From: a virus
DNA length: 26,922 nucleotides
Virus record (IMG/VR): IMGVR_UViG_3300025671_000418
Coordinates: 1-26,922 of that record
Direction: 5' to 3' (one strand)
The position numbers and the translations under genes were made by a program. Below are positions 4,933 through 21,963 of the stretch, one piece after another. The notes beneath the pieces are model-generated. The model saw only the letters and a list, made by a program, of their open reading frames with translations, ran no database searches and was not told the origin of the DNA. The stretch's first letter is position 1. The number at the start of each line of letters is the position of its first letter.

Positions 4933-4961
4933 ATGGTAACATGTGTTGCATACCTAGGCAA
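4933..4961 (-). promoter_or_regulatory. Leftward sigma-70-type promoter
   Basis: On the leftward strand TTGCCT (4961-4956) and TACCAT (4938-4933) are separated by exactly 17 bases, and TGT before the -10 box resembles an extended -10. Each box matches four of six consensus bases. The -35 box lies inside the operator-like repeat at 4944-4963, so a bound regulator should block it. It is placed to transcribe the whole leftward block. Confidence 0.5.
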
Positions 4962-4963
4962 CA
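4944..4963. promoter_or_regulatory. Operator-like 20-base repeat, promoter-proximal copy
   Basis: TGTTGC and GCAACA form perfect six-base arms around eight bases. This is the most symmetrical copy of the family and the only one this close to the leftward genes. It covers the -35 box of the leftward promoter. Confidence 0.6.
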
Positions 4964-4974
4964 TATAGGCGCTG

Positions 4975-5003
4975 ATTTATTACCAAGGTTTTGGCGATAA
5001 ATG
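4975..5003. repeat. Palindrome containing TTGGCGATAAATG, copy 1
   Basis: ATTTAT-TA-CCAA, a four-base loop, then TTGG-CG-ATAAAT form an interrupted inverted repeat with six-base outer and four-base inner arms. The right half, TTGGCGATAAATG, recurs exactly at 5204-5216 and, less the last base, at 6101-6112. It may be a protein-binding site for replication or regulation. Confidence 0.5.
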
Positions 5004-5092
5004 AAGTCAATGATTTCAAGGGGTTAGGTCATGATTTGGCATTTATTGACTTCTGGCCAGGGGGTCTTGTCATTATGTCAGGGTAGGGGCGT

Positions 5093-5122
5093 CCTAGGTC
5101 CTCTCAGGAGGTGAGAGGTAGG
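5093..5122. repeat. Stem-loop next to the AT tract
   Basis: A perfect seven-base-pair stem, CCTCTCA/TGAGAGG with loop GGAGG, is extended by CCTA/TAGG across a three-base bulge. It ends six bases before the AT tract at 5128. No T-run follows, so a role in an origin or as a binding site is more likely than termination. Confidence 0.55.
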
Positions 5123-5127
5123 GGTAG

Positions 5128-5164
5128 ATATATATATATAATATATACTTAATATATAACATAA
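5128..5164. other. AT tract, candidate DNA-unwinding element
   Basis: Of 37 bases, 35 are A or T, mostly alternating, flanked by GTAG on the left and CTAC on the right. Such easily melted tracts are typical of replication origins. Its setting beside a stem-loop and near repeats supports that reading, but a replication protein gene is not seen in the window. Confidence 0.45.
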
Positions 5165-5183
5165 CTACCTGTAACCATTGGGG

Positions 5184-5216
5184 TTTATTTCTGGCCAAGG
5201 GGCTTGGCGATAAATG
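5184..5216. repeat. Palindrome containing TTGGCGATAAATG, copy 2
   Basis: GCCAAG/CTTGGC with a three-base loop forms a perfect six-base-pair stem, flanked by TTTAT on the left and ATAAA on the right. The right part matches copy 1 over 13 bases. A further GGCGATAA follows directly at 5217-5224. Confidence 0.5.
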
Positions 5217-5378
5217 GGCGATAAGTCAGGAAGTCCGACCTCTCGCCCTGGCTGGCTTGGCGCGTGGTGGGCGCCTGAGGCACCGTGGGAGCGTTAACAC
5301 AGTGGGTCGGGGCGGTGGGCATATGCGACCTACACTGCCACCGCTTCGCCCTTTCTGGCCCCAACCTATTGACAACAA

Positions 5379-5398
5379 TGTTTGCAGGTCAGGCAACA
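5379..5398. promoter_or_regulatory. Operator-like 20-base repeat
   Basis: TGTTTGCAGGTCAGGCAACA keeps the outer arms and 20-base length of the family. A perfect TTGACA lies just before it (5369-5374), but no -10 box is found at a normal distance. Confidence 0.45.
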
Positions 5399-5433
5399 AT
5401 AAATGTCGAATTTGCCGAGGTTGGACGTTCGGG

Positions 5434-5453
5434 TGTTGCCGAATATGGTAACG
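5434..5453. promoter_or_regulatory. Operator-like 20-base repeat, diverged
   Basis: TGTTGCCGAATATGGTAACG keeps the left arm exactly and the right arm with changes, at the same length as the other copies. Confidence 0.35.
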
Positions 5454-5513
5454 TCAATAAGCCCTTGAGCGCCTTAGAGGGCAACCTCGCAAGCCTCAGG
5501 GCGTCAAGTCTTT

Positions 5514-5533
5514 TGTTAACTATTTAATCAACA
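5514..5533. promoter_or_regulatory. Operator-like 20-base repeat, diverged
   Basis: TGTTAACTATTTAATCAACA keeps TGTT and CAACA at the correct spacing but has an AT-rich centre. It lies 81 bases before the dense array. Confidence 0.35.
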
Positions 5534-5594
5534 CAATGCGTCAAACGTACATCGGGCACTCGGTCTACTCACGAGTAGATTGTGAATGAGCCTG

Positions 5595-5798
5595 TGTTGC
5601 GTTATGCGACAACACCGCCTGTCATCACCTGTCAACCCTGTGTTGCACACTGCGACAACACCAACCATGTTGCATAGTGAGACGACATAGGAACGTGTTG
5701 CGTACTGCGACAACAGGAACGCGTGTTGCATTCAGCGACAACATCTCAATGTGACACAGTTTAGCAACATGAGAATGCTGTTAGCAAATTGCGAAACA
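5595..5798. promoter_or_regulatory. Array of seven operator-like 20-base repeats
   Basis: Copies start at 5595, 5641, 5668, 5696, 5724, 5750 and 5779; from 5641 on the step is 27, 28, 28, 26 and 29 bases. The clearest members are TGTTGCGTACTGCGACAACA (5696) and TGTTGCACACTGCGACAACA (5641); the last two are more diverged. The outer arms TGTTG/CAACA are inverted and a TGCGA block is conserved off-centre, so the site is not fully symmetrical. The spacing fits iterons of a replication origin or a repressor array. No gene for a binding protein is obvious in the window. Confidence 0.7.
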
Positions 5799-5836: not shown

Positions 5837-5857
5837 CCGGGGGGTACCCCCGGTTTT
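5837..5857 (+). terminator. Strong rightward Rho-independent terminator with no gene before it
   Basis: CCGGGGG and CCCCCGG form a perfect seven-base-pair stem around a three-base loop, followed by TTTT. It ends rightward transcription just after the operator array. No rightward gene precedes it, so it may end a small RNA or block read-through into the late genes. Confidence 0.65.
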
Positions 5858-5910
5858 AGAAAAAGATTTAGTATTAGAATACCCTCACACGCACTATTCA
5901 CATTTTCCAA

Positions 5911-5925
5911 TAACGCAGTGCGTTA
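5911..5925. promoter_or_regulatory. Perfect 15-base palindrome
   Basis: TAACGCAGTGCGTTA has seven-base arms around a single central G. It differs from the 20-base repeats and may be the site of a second regulator. Confidence 0.45.
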
Positions 5926-6129: not shown

Positions 6130-6177
6130 TGTCGCAGATGTCGCAGGATTTCACTTCGCAGAATTCGCAACTTTGCA
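6130..6177 (+). promoter_or_regulatory. Cluster of TCGCA-type short repeats before the first late gene
   Basis: TGTCGCA occurs at 6130 and 6139, TTCGCA at 6155 and 6164, and TTGCA at 6173, with steps of 9, 16, 9 and 9 bases. TGTCGCA is the reverse complement of the conserved TGCGACA half of the 20-base operator repeats. The cluster may be a half-site array for the same protein, or a packaging or regulatory site. Confidence 0.4.
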
Positions 6178-6206
6178 GGCAATTAGATTTTAGTTATGCT
6201 TTTGGT

Positions 6207-6653
6207 ATGAGTGACAAAATGATGGACATGAAGAAATTGGTAGCCCGTTACGATACCAATGCGTTTGGAGCACTGAGCAAGCAGGACAAGTCAGATCTTG
6301 TAGAGGATACCGACAAGGCCCTGGCGTATGAGGCCGACAAGTCTGTCCGTATGAACGCAACCCCGGTCGAAGCCCGATACCTGCCCAGACTGGCAGATAT
6401 CCAGCAGAATATTTATGCGGTGCTGGAGAGCGAGAGTCGAAAGCTTGCAGATGCCAGCACCAGAAGATACCACGAGACTTTATCAGCGGAAGAAGTTAAG
6501 TTACTTGGCGTGGTGACAAGAAGCCTTTGTCAGCTCGGAGACCTTGAGCGGGGCTTGCGACAGAATGATCAGTTGAGTAGCATGAGCGATGAAGATCTCC
6601 AAAGGTTGGCTGGGGAAGCCTTCAAGCAGTTGGAGACCAAAGGGGGCAAATAA
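6207..6653 (+). CDS. Unknown helical protein, candidate small terminase subunit
   Basis: First gene of the rightward block, 148 residues from ATG 6207. A GTG at 6129 is in frame, but it would translate the short TCGCA repeats into a serine-glutamine string, so I prefer the ATG. Neither start has a clear ribosome site. TTGCAG (6173) and TATGCT (6195), 16 bases apart, could place a transcript start at or near the ATG, giving a nearly leaderless mRNA. The protein is charged and almost wholly helical, with no membrane segment. Small terminase subunits recognise phage DNA for packaging and usually lie just before the large subunit; here one or two small genes intervene. The role is assigned by position only. 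Confidence 0.55.
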   Translation: MSDKMMDMKKLVARYDTNAFGALSKQDKSDLVEDTDKALAYEADKSVRMNATPVEARYLPRLADIQQNIYAVLESESRKLADASTRRYHETLSAEEVKLLGVVTRSLCQLGDLERGLRQNDQLSSMSDEDLQRLAGEAFKQLETKGGK

Positions 6654-7153
6654 TGGCGCTGGCACAAGAAAGGCGCATACCGATCAGGCTTCGCATGGCC
6701 GATGCGTCCGATGCGCCGATGATTTACTCGAACTGGCTTAAGTCATACGCGGGCCAGAATAAGCACATTCCGAAAACGGTGGTGGATAAAATTCACCGCC
6801 AGGTTGTGGGCAGACTTCTGAGCGAAGCCCATACAGTCGTTGCAGTGGTGGACCTGCCAGACCTAGATGATGAAATCTGCGGTTGGGTCTGCGCGCAAAG
6901 GTCAGAAAAATTTTTTATTACCCACTGGGGCTATGTCAAACGCGAGTACCGGATGTTTGGCATCATGACCGCCATGCTGGAGATGTTCGAGTACAGCAAG
7001 GGTGAGCCAACAATGGCTAGTCACGACTTTCCGCTGCGCAAAGATTTGCGCAATCACAACATTATGTATGTTCCGCATCTCTGCCACGAGGGTGGCTTGG
7101 AACAGATAGACAAACTCTATGGAGGCCACCTCAATGCAGTCAGTGAAGCTTAA
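6653..7153 (+). CDS. GNAT-like acetyltransferase
   Basis: This 166-residue protein starts at ATG 6653, sharing a base with the previous stop (TAATG), with AGGGGG upstream. The N-terminus IRLRMADASDAPMIYSNWL matches the opening strand and helix of GNAT N-acetyltransferases. The central strand and turn HWGYVKREYRMFGIMTAMLE (91-110) corresponds to motif A; the acetyl-CoA loop reads R-M-F-G-I-M (100-105) against the usual R/Q-x-x-G-x-G/A, so the last position is unusual and activity is uncertain. Proteins of this kind are known beside packaging and virion genes in several short-tailed phages, with unknown targets. It is probably co-transcribed with the terminase. Confidence 0.65.
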   Translation: MALAQERRIPIRLRMADASDAPMIYSNWLKSYAGQNKHIPKTVVDKIHRQVVGRLLSEAHTVVAVVDLPDLDDEICGWVCAQRSEKFFITHWGYVKREYRMFGIMTAMLEMFEYSKGEPTMASHDFPLRKDLRNHNIMYVPHLCHEGGLEQIDKLYGGHLNAVSEA

Positions 7154-20293: not shown

Positions 20294-21963
20294 TGGCTGA
20301 TAGCGAACCGCAAAGCCAGGTTATAAAGGCGCGTGATCCTGAAAAGACTTCGGGAGGCACACTTACCTATAGGCCAAAAGATGTGCCTATGCCGCAACCT
20401 ATAGAAGAAGAGAGTAATTTTTTTCTAGATTTTCTTGAAGGCGTTGGCAACGTTTTTACCCCTGACGACAGAGCAAGCAAAATGATCGGGGATATGCCAG
20501 AGGGCGTAACTCCTAAAGCTCTTCAAAGAGACGAGAGTAAGTTTTACAATCGTCGAGACGTGCCTATGAAGCCAACCGTGGTTGAGTTTGGCGAAGTAGA
20601 TCCGGATGTTGCCAAGGCAGCGAATCAGCAACTCGCAGCAGAATTAGCAAACCTTCGGATGCCTGGTGGCTACAAACTGGAAACTCCTAGAAGGTTTGAT
20701 CTTGAAAGACCGTCCAGAGAATTACAAGCTCGCCTAAAAGAAATTGACGAGCGAAGAGAATCTGAGGCGATGGCCGCCGCTAGGCAATCTTTTCAAGAAA
20801 GCCAGACTCGATTTAACGAAGCACTGCAAGCGGTTGAAGAATACAAGCCAGACAATCAAGGGCCCTTTAAGACCTTTGGCTCTAAGATTATGGCAGGCAT
20901 CTCAATCGCCCTGGGCGAAGCCGCACGAGGATTTCGCGGTGGCCAAGGCGAGAACATTGGCCTGACCCTGGTCAATCAGACTATTGACCGAGAAGTTCAG
21001 CGTCAGCGAGATGAATACAATCGATTAAAAGACCGCGTAAACTTCGCCGATAACCTTTACGCAAAAACCTTTGGCATTCTCAAAAACGAGGAGCTTGCCG
21101 AAAAGACCGTGAAAGAAGCTCTTGAGCGCAGGGCTATGAACTTGTTCGATTCTGCGACAGCAAACATGCAGGGTAACGTATCTCAAGAGCAGTTTAGGGT
21201 TCAGCTAGTTAATCAATACCGAGCGAACAACGCTAATCTTAAGGCTCAAGGCGTTAAGGTTGCCCGTGAGGAAGCTATTGCTCGAAGAGATGCAGCAATC
21301 GCTGAATCTAAAGCTAGAGACCTGGCAGAAAAGAAAGCCATGGCGGGGCAACAGCTTAGCGAAACCGCAAAAGGTGACGCGGGTGCTGAAGCCGCAAGAC
21401 TTCAGGGCGCTCAACAAAATGTTTTGGAAGCTGTTGGCTCATTGGACGAATACAGAAAGGCGCTTCAAGCCGAAGGGCTTGATACGGCTGCCGTGCCTGG
21501 AATTATGGAGGCCGTAGAAAGAGCTGTTGCAAGCGGAGATGTTGGCGGCATTATGGGAGTCCTAAAAACTAAATTGTTTGTTGGGGATAACCCAGAGCTA
21601 ATTACATTTGCTAACAAAGTTAACCAAATTGCTTTTGGCTTGGCGTCACAGAATCAATCATCAAGCTCTATCTCGAACAAAGATGTTGGTATCTTTATTC
21701 AGCTTTTAGCTAACCCGAATGTGCCGATTGATGAAGTTCAATCATTCTTGGTGTTTATGGCTGATAAGCTGGCGGCTGATGCTGTTTACAATCAGGCGAT
21801 TGCTAACGGATTCAAGCCAAAAGAAGCCACTATTGAGTCCGATAGAGCCATGACTTCACGAGGGTACAAGCTAAACAAACAAGGCGTATATGAGCCAAAG
21901 GGAACCTTTAGTCCTAGAACCAAGCAAATGATGCAAAATCGTGGACTCGGCGGCGGTAACTGA
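20293..21963 (+). CDS. Putative ejection protein 3
   Basis: The start at ATG 20293 overlaps the previous stop (TGATG), with GGAGG seven bases before it; a GTG three bases upstream is less likely. The 556-residue protein has a proline-rich start, helices, and a segment FGSKIMAGISIALGEAARGF followed by RGGQGENIGLTLVNQTIDRE (about 195-235) that I recall from other phage proteins near the tail genes, with the pattern 'IALGxxxxGxxGGxNxxLxxxxxxIDRE'. The C-terminal third has DVGIFIQLLANPNVPIDEVQ and is also helical. No enzyme motif is visible. By place and composition it is an ejection protein; the exact step is unknown. Confidence 0.6.
   Translation: MADSEPQSQVIKARDPEKTSGGTLTYRPKDVPMPQPIEEESNFFLDFLEGVGNVFTPDDRASKMIGDMPEGVTPKALQRDESKFYNRRDVPMKPTVVEFGEVDPDVAKAANQQLAAELANLRMPGGYKLETPRRFDLERPSRELQARLKEIDERRESEAMAAARQSFQESQTRFNEALQAVEEYKPDNQGPFKTFGSKIMAGISIALGEAARGFRGGQGENIGLTLVNQTIDREVQRQRDEYNRLKDRVNFADNLYAKTFGILKNEELAEKTVKEALERRAMNLFDSATANMQGNVSQEQFRVQLVNQYRANNANLKAQGVKVAREEAIARRDAAIAESKARDLAEKKAMAGQQLSETAKGDAGAEAARLQGAQQNVLEAVGSLDEYRKALQAEGLDTAAVPGIMEAVERAVASGDVGGIMGVLKTKLFVGDNPELITFANKVNQIAFGLASQNQSSSSISNKDVGIFIQLLANPNVPIDEVQSFLVFMADKLAADAVYNQAIANGFKPKEATIESDRAMTSRGYKLNKQGVYEPKGTFSPRTKQMMQNRGLGGGN

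Follow-up and report, generated by a model that had tools for sequence, protein, structure and literature searches.

Several initiator sites, the O iterons, stand beside an AT-rich tract that is to be opened in the replication origin of phage lambda, which lies inside the O gene. The number of such iterons varies among lambdoid phages, being four in lambda and six in Stx phages (PMC7466680). Replicons of the pRN1 and NrS-1 type depend instead on a PrimPol replication protein and carry GTG or GTGA motifs near the putative start (PMC4234260, PMC8718748), GTGA being the recognition motif of the phage NrS-1 PrimPol and GTG that of pRN1 ORF904 (PMC8718748). In pRN1, the origin lies downstream of the rep gene and consists of a stem-loop of 100 nt that has no iterons. 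In the basal unwinding system of DnaA, double-strand sites, a GC-rich spacer, and a tract with a period of 3 follow one another. Repeated short sites are also known from L5-type (Cluster A) mycobacteriophages, whose stoperators are asymmetric and occur in large numbers throughout the phage genome (PMC9283540). Little is known of how a start site is chosen by phages with PrimPol-type replication.

The DNA analysed here, referred to as the window, is a 26.9-kb IMG/VR record from an uncultured saline-water phage. It encodes a portal protein, a major head protein, and a large terminase (TerL), which are distant kin of those of known phages, and no near DNA match to the window or its phage group was found in the phage collection. 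Two overlapping contigs, L100 and L101, are 99.97% identical to the window and add about 6 kb of left arm, encoding a PrimPol-PriCT-DUF3987 protein (709 aa; a PrimPol-helicase), a small protein of 85 aa, Sak4, a DUF669 SSB-like protein, Cas4 and VRR nucleases, and a 76-aa Cro-like helix-turn-helix (HTH) protein. The initial annotation, made from the window, stated that the partner protein of the repeats is not encoded in the visible genes; this holds for the window, and the candidates lie in L100 and L101. A search with TerL returned 94 related stretches, among which the complete-looking ones, i.e., contigs with end repeats, include G009 (37.8 kb) and G003 (39.4 kb). When compared with genomes, TerL gave one distant match (27%, to a contig of an uncultured archaeon), which gives no host clue. 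On the minus strand, positions 467 to 868 of the window partially match an ArdA-like antirestriction protein, of which an 86% identical copy is found close to the control region of G012.

According to our analysis, the 20-base repeat family in the control region is genuine but smaller than first claimed. The pattern TGTTGCNNNNTGCGACAACA, searched with up to three mismatches (chance expectation, 0.28), was matched on the plus strand at 5595 to 5614, 5641 to 5660, and 5696 to 5715 without mismatches, at 5724 to 5743 with one, and at 5668 to 5687 with two. A matrix built on these five matches and the isolated copy at 4944 scores all six between 27 and 31 bits, compared with a maximum of 14.1 over ten Markov shuffles, and the orientation is identical in all of them. 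The steps between the array copies, starting from 5595, are 46, 27, 28, and 28 bases, and they are followed by steps of 26 and 29 to two degenerate copies which keep the phase, at 5750 to 5769 on the plus strand (6.9 bits; P of about 0.001) and at 5779 to 5798 on the minus strand (8.4 bits; P < 0.001), each having a chance of about 0.001 of falling in a 5-base window. The array thus comprises seven phased sites from 5595 to 5798, plus the one isolated copy. Since 5750 and 5779 continue the phase, the six consecutive copies with steps of 26 to 29 described in the initial annotation are found from 5641 to 5798. Its count of at least eleven copies, instead, reduces to six strong and two degenerate ones, as the further candidates at 5434, 5514, and 5378 have chance-level scores. 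What the array copies have in common is limited to the TGTTG and CAACA arms, and 5 to 6 of 10 positions pair in their dyads.

The array is a real cis element under selective constraint, as seen by comparison with L005, a diverged relative which is 89% identical across the control region. Between L005 and the window, 3 of 100 positions are changed in the five strong array sites, all of them in the variable centre (one in the copy at 5641 and two in that at 5696, with those at 5595, 5668, and 5724 unchanged). Neither degenerate site is altered (0 of 40 positions), and 18 of 136 positions are changed in the spacers between 5560 and 5835. A 67-aa open reading frame spans the array and has internal stops in L005; the array is therefore non-coding, and its being part of a gene is ruled out. 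The earlier statement that no clear copy lies inside genes stands as far as the array is concerned, and is qualified by a moderate in-gene match at 21143 to 21162 (three mismatches, 16 to 17 bits), slightly above the shuffle maximum.

The isolated copy, TGTTGCATACCTAGGCAACA, at 4944 to 4963 on the plus strand, is the most palindromic one, with 8 of 10 dyad pairs and a score of 27.4 bits, and has one change in L005. It overlies a -35-like AGGCAA, which reads TTGCCT on the minus strand, and a distance of 17 bases separates this element from ATGGTA (TACCAT), so that a leftward promoter TTGCCT-N17-TACCAT, matching at 8 of 12 positions, can be read at 4933 to 4961 on the minus strand. The copy does cover a -35-like element, in agreement with the initial annotation; the promoter itself is plausible at most, since it falls under the threshold of a strict promoter scan and its -10 element is altered in L005.

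Scoring with the matrix across the window and the 6-kb extension, about 33 kb of phage, located the strong motif only at 4944 to 5743 and gave no match of comparable strength outside the control region. Likewise, in G004, G008, and G009 (35 to 38 kb), the sites detected for their own arrays are all at one locus. When viral contigs were scanned for two adjacent sites, matches were limited to this phage, L003, L004, and L005, and a scan of genome contigs found no such array in cellular genomes. The initial annotation had proposed either the iterons of an origin or stoperators of the L5 type. The sites share with stoperators their repetition, their shortness, and a suspected phage DNA-binding partner; however, they lie within a single control region, and their outer arms are symmetric. 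This confinement argues against genome-wide stoperators: dispersed sites were not found, and apart from 4944, there is one cluster. An integrase, too, was looked for in 11 records, which may be incomplete, and was not found; a small Cro-like HTH protein is present. An origin fits better, though it is not proven.

To the right of the region described in the initial annotation, at a distance of 45 to 100 bp, we found a single-copy core which is present in about 40 related contigs and comprises the palindrome GGGGGTACCCCC, a tract of 24 bp with a period of 6 bp, the sequence AATACCCTCACACKCACT, and a dyad of the TAACGCANTGCGTTA type. It starts with the GC-rich palindrome CCGGGGGGTACCCCCGG (5837 to 5853), which resembles GGGGGT(A/G)(T/C)CCCCC and is at the same place in most relatives, and which is replaced by a C-rich sequence in the group of G004, G007, and L064. 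The tract (5853 to 5876) consists of the hexamers TTTTAG, AAAAAG, ATTTAG, and TATTAG. Its sequence varies among lineages and the 6-bp period is retained, and clear, mainly in close relatives, with a lag-6 identity of 0.53 versus 0.34 in shuffles (0.78 where TerL identity exceeds 90%); the corresponding z of 8 is optimistic, as the sequences behind it are few and related. The core motif GAATACCCTCACACGCACTA (5877 to 5896) carries GTG/GTGA motifs on the minus strand and occurs as a single copy in each of the 40 above-threshold contigs, whose TerL identity goes as low as 59%, and diverged forms of it are present in G001, G002, and G012. Among viral contigs, 12 of its 13 matches belong to this clade and this place, and the 13th lies within the coding sequence of an unrelated phage. 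A further part of the core is the 15-bp dyad TAACGCAGTGCGTTA (5911 to 5925), kept across relatives in a RACRCANNGCGTY-like form.

The array sequence, in contrast to the core, persists in L003, L004, and L005 alone, the nearest relatives, and is absent from the other relatives with 90 to 96% TerL identity. The array is thus conserved in part of the clade, and elsewhere different arrays occupy the same place, so that the answer is split for the refuting condition set in the initial annotation, namely a lack of conservation of the array among relatives. Left of the core, some lineages carry two to five copies of TGAAYC..ATTCA, with a step of 31 to 34 in the longer arrays, others two copies of GATAGATTTTTATCTAT with a step of 20, and further ones three copies of GTATGGCAACTGC or two to three of TGAC..GGTCA, and some relatives have weak repeats only, or none, at this position. 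Repeats of the CTCGCTACGCTCG type were seen left of the core in L009, L012, L023, and L024. Since close relatives keep the core and swap the array, the two together are a natural mix-and-match control element and not random repeats. The clade offers a natural series in which one element is fixed and the adjoining array varies, so that comparison and exchange of arrays could reveal what determines specificity.

The strongest complication for an origin comes from G007/L077 and L064, which have HTH, PrimPol, and helicase proteins that are 99%, 98%, and 91% identical, respectively, yet whose arrays differ; none of the three simply dictates the array, and each of them alone as its partner is contradicted. 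The first right-arm protein (148 aa) is 79 to 88% identical in relatives without the window's array and about 90 to 95% identical between lineages with differing arrays. The absence of the array beside versions of this protein that are 79 to 86% identical argues against it as the partner, and we rejected it. No initiator covarying with the array was found among the relatives.

We tentatively favour, at somewhat less than an even chance, the interpretation of the array as iterons of the phage's replication origin, to which an initiator-type protein specific to this phage would bind, since the phased sites adjoin a conserved non-coding core and the phage has PrimPol-type replication genes. As in iteron-type origins, the direct repeats are multiple and phased. 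That the strict promoter scan detected nothing over the array, and that the 11 records gave no integrase match, also speaks for this interpretation. An initiator-type protein would load on the seven phased sites at 5595 to 5798, and the adjacent core would be the place of strand opening and primed synthesis, with the GC palindrome, the 6-bp-periodic tract, the AATACCCTCACAC(T/G)CACT element, and the 15-bp dyad as the opening and priming parts. The phage's PrimPol would prime at the core, where GTG(A) motifs lie on the lower strand of the AATACCCTCACAC(T/G)CACT element, although GTGA is a short motif, which counts against an origin. Through the near-palindromic copy at 4944, the initiator-type protein would also be able to weaken the leftward early promoter. 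The cumulative GC skew was uninformative and gave no independent support for an origin. If so placed, the array and core could mark the start site for a phage group without a close match in the phage collection.

Such an origin would resemble that of lambda in that several initiator sites adjoin the tract where strands would open, but the array is intergenic, the core beside it has a GC palindrome, a 6-bp periodic tract, and a conserved motif, and the array is wholly replaced between relatives, whereas the iteron sequences of lambda and Stx phages are nearly identical. With the pRN1- and NrS-1-type replicons, it would share the PrimPol replication protein and the GTG/GTGA motifs, the phased repeats setting it apart from the iteron-free pRN1 stem-loop. 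The order of its parts recalls the DnaA basal unwinding system, but its period is 6, not 3; a DnaA origin of this type was rejected, as no DnaA boxes were found and DnaA-trio-like periodicity is significant only in L027. In this relative, the tract occupying the 24 bases left of the core motif is a run of GTA/TAG triplets (GTAGTAGAAGTAGTAGTAGTAGTA).

A serious rival to iterons, although we deem it somewhat unlikely, is that the sites are operators through which a phage repressor or a regulator of the Cro-like kind, for instance the 76-aa HTH protein, controls divergent early and late transcription units, possibly with looping between 4944 and the array. An HTH dimer would fit the 20-bp palindromic sites, divergent operons flank the array, 4944 is over the -35-like element, a Cro-like HTH protein of 70 to 76 aa is present in most relatives having left-arm sequence, and the turnover of the array sequence resembles that of immunity operators. 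However, about 650 bp separate the array proper from the putative left promoter, the right operon begins about 400 bp away from it, and the promoter scan, a strict one which misses the putative left promoter too, found none in the array. The nearly identical HTH proteins of G007/L077 and L064 beside differing arrays also speak against it, as does the lack of an integrase family match in 11 records, which may be incomplete.

The iteron interpretation can be carried further, to a modular origin, in which a deeply conserved opening and priming core is combined with an array of initiator sites that close relatives exchange as a cassette, irrespective of their PrimPol and helicase genes, and that allows rapid change of replication or incompatibility specificity. 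We regard this extended form as distinctly unlikely.

The core is common to phages with different replication modules and thus travels with the right (structural) arm, to which the array is not linked. This counts against an origin, as the core could instead serve packaging. A packaging-initiation site of the pac or cosB type, with the terminase recognising the array and core, is nevertheless improbable in our judgement. The location, immediately before the first right-arm gene and terL, would be suitable, but the 148-aa protein, the candidate terminase small subunit, is conserved while the array is replaced, and fold searches with its weak, all-helical structure model found nothing. The idea of fixed cos ends at the core was discarded as unlikely, since most contigs, as judged from assemblies, run through it, and contig starts are not piled up there.

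We consider it very improbable that the repeats are centromere-like sites for partition or plasmid-prophage maintenance, bound by the small, possibly ribbon-helix-helix, 85-aa protein (L101, 5910 to 6167), whose restriction to the window's lineage and near relatives parallels that of the array and whose gene, preceding the PrimPol gene, recalls orf56/orf904 of pRN1 (PMC4234260), because the ribbon-helix-helix assignment was made by eye, the protein matches no family and was poorly modelled (pLDDT 57), and no ParA-like ATPase was noticed, albeit without a dedicated ParA search.

Other repeats were observed in the control region. The sequence TTGGCGATAAATG is dispersed at 4990, 5203, and 6100, and a 19-bp repeat occurs in two copies, at 5046 and 5184 (TTGACTTCTGGCCAGGGGG and TTTATTTCTGGCCAAGGGG). 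A second array, of 9-bp direct repeats (TGTCGCAGA TGTCGCAGG .. TTCGCAGAA TTCGCAACT), occupies 6131 to 6178, just upstream of the first rightward gene (ATG at 6207); it is absent in most other relatives and is also found in L005, G001, and G002/L021. Between the first right-arm gene and terL, a GNAT-acetyltransferase-like gene is located at 6653 to 7153 in the window, and likewise in relatives.
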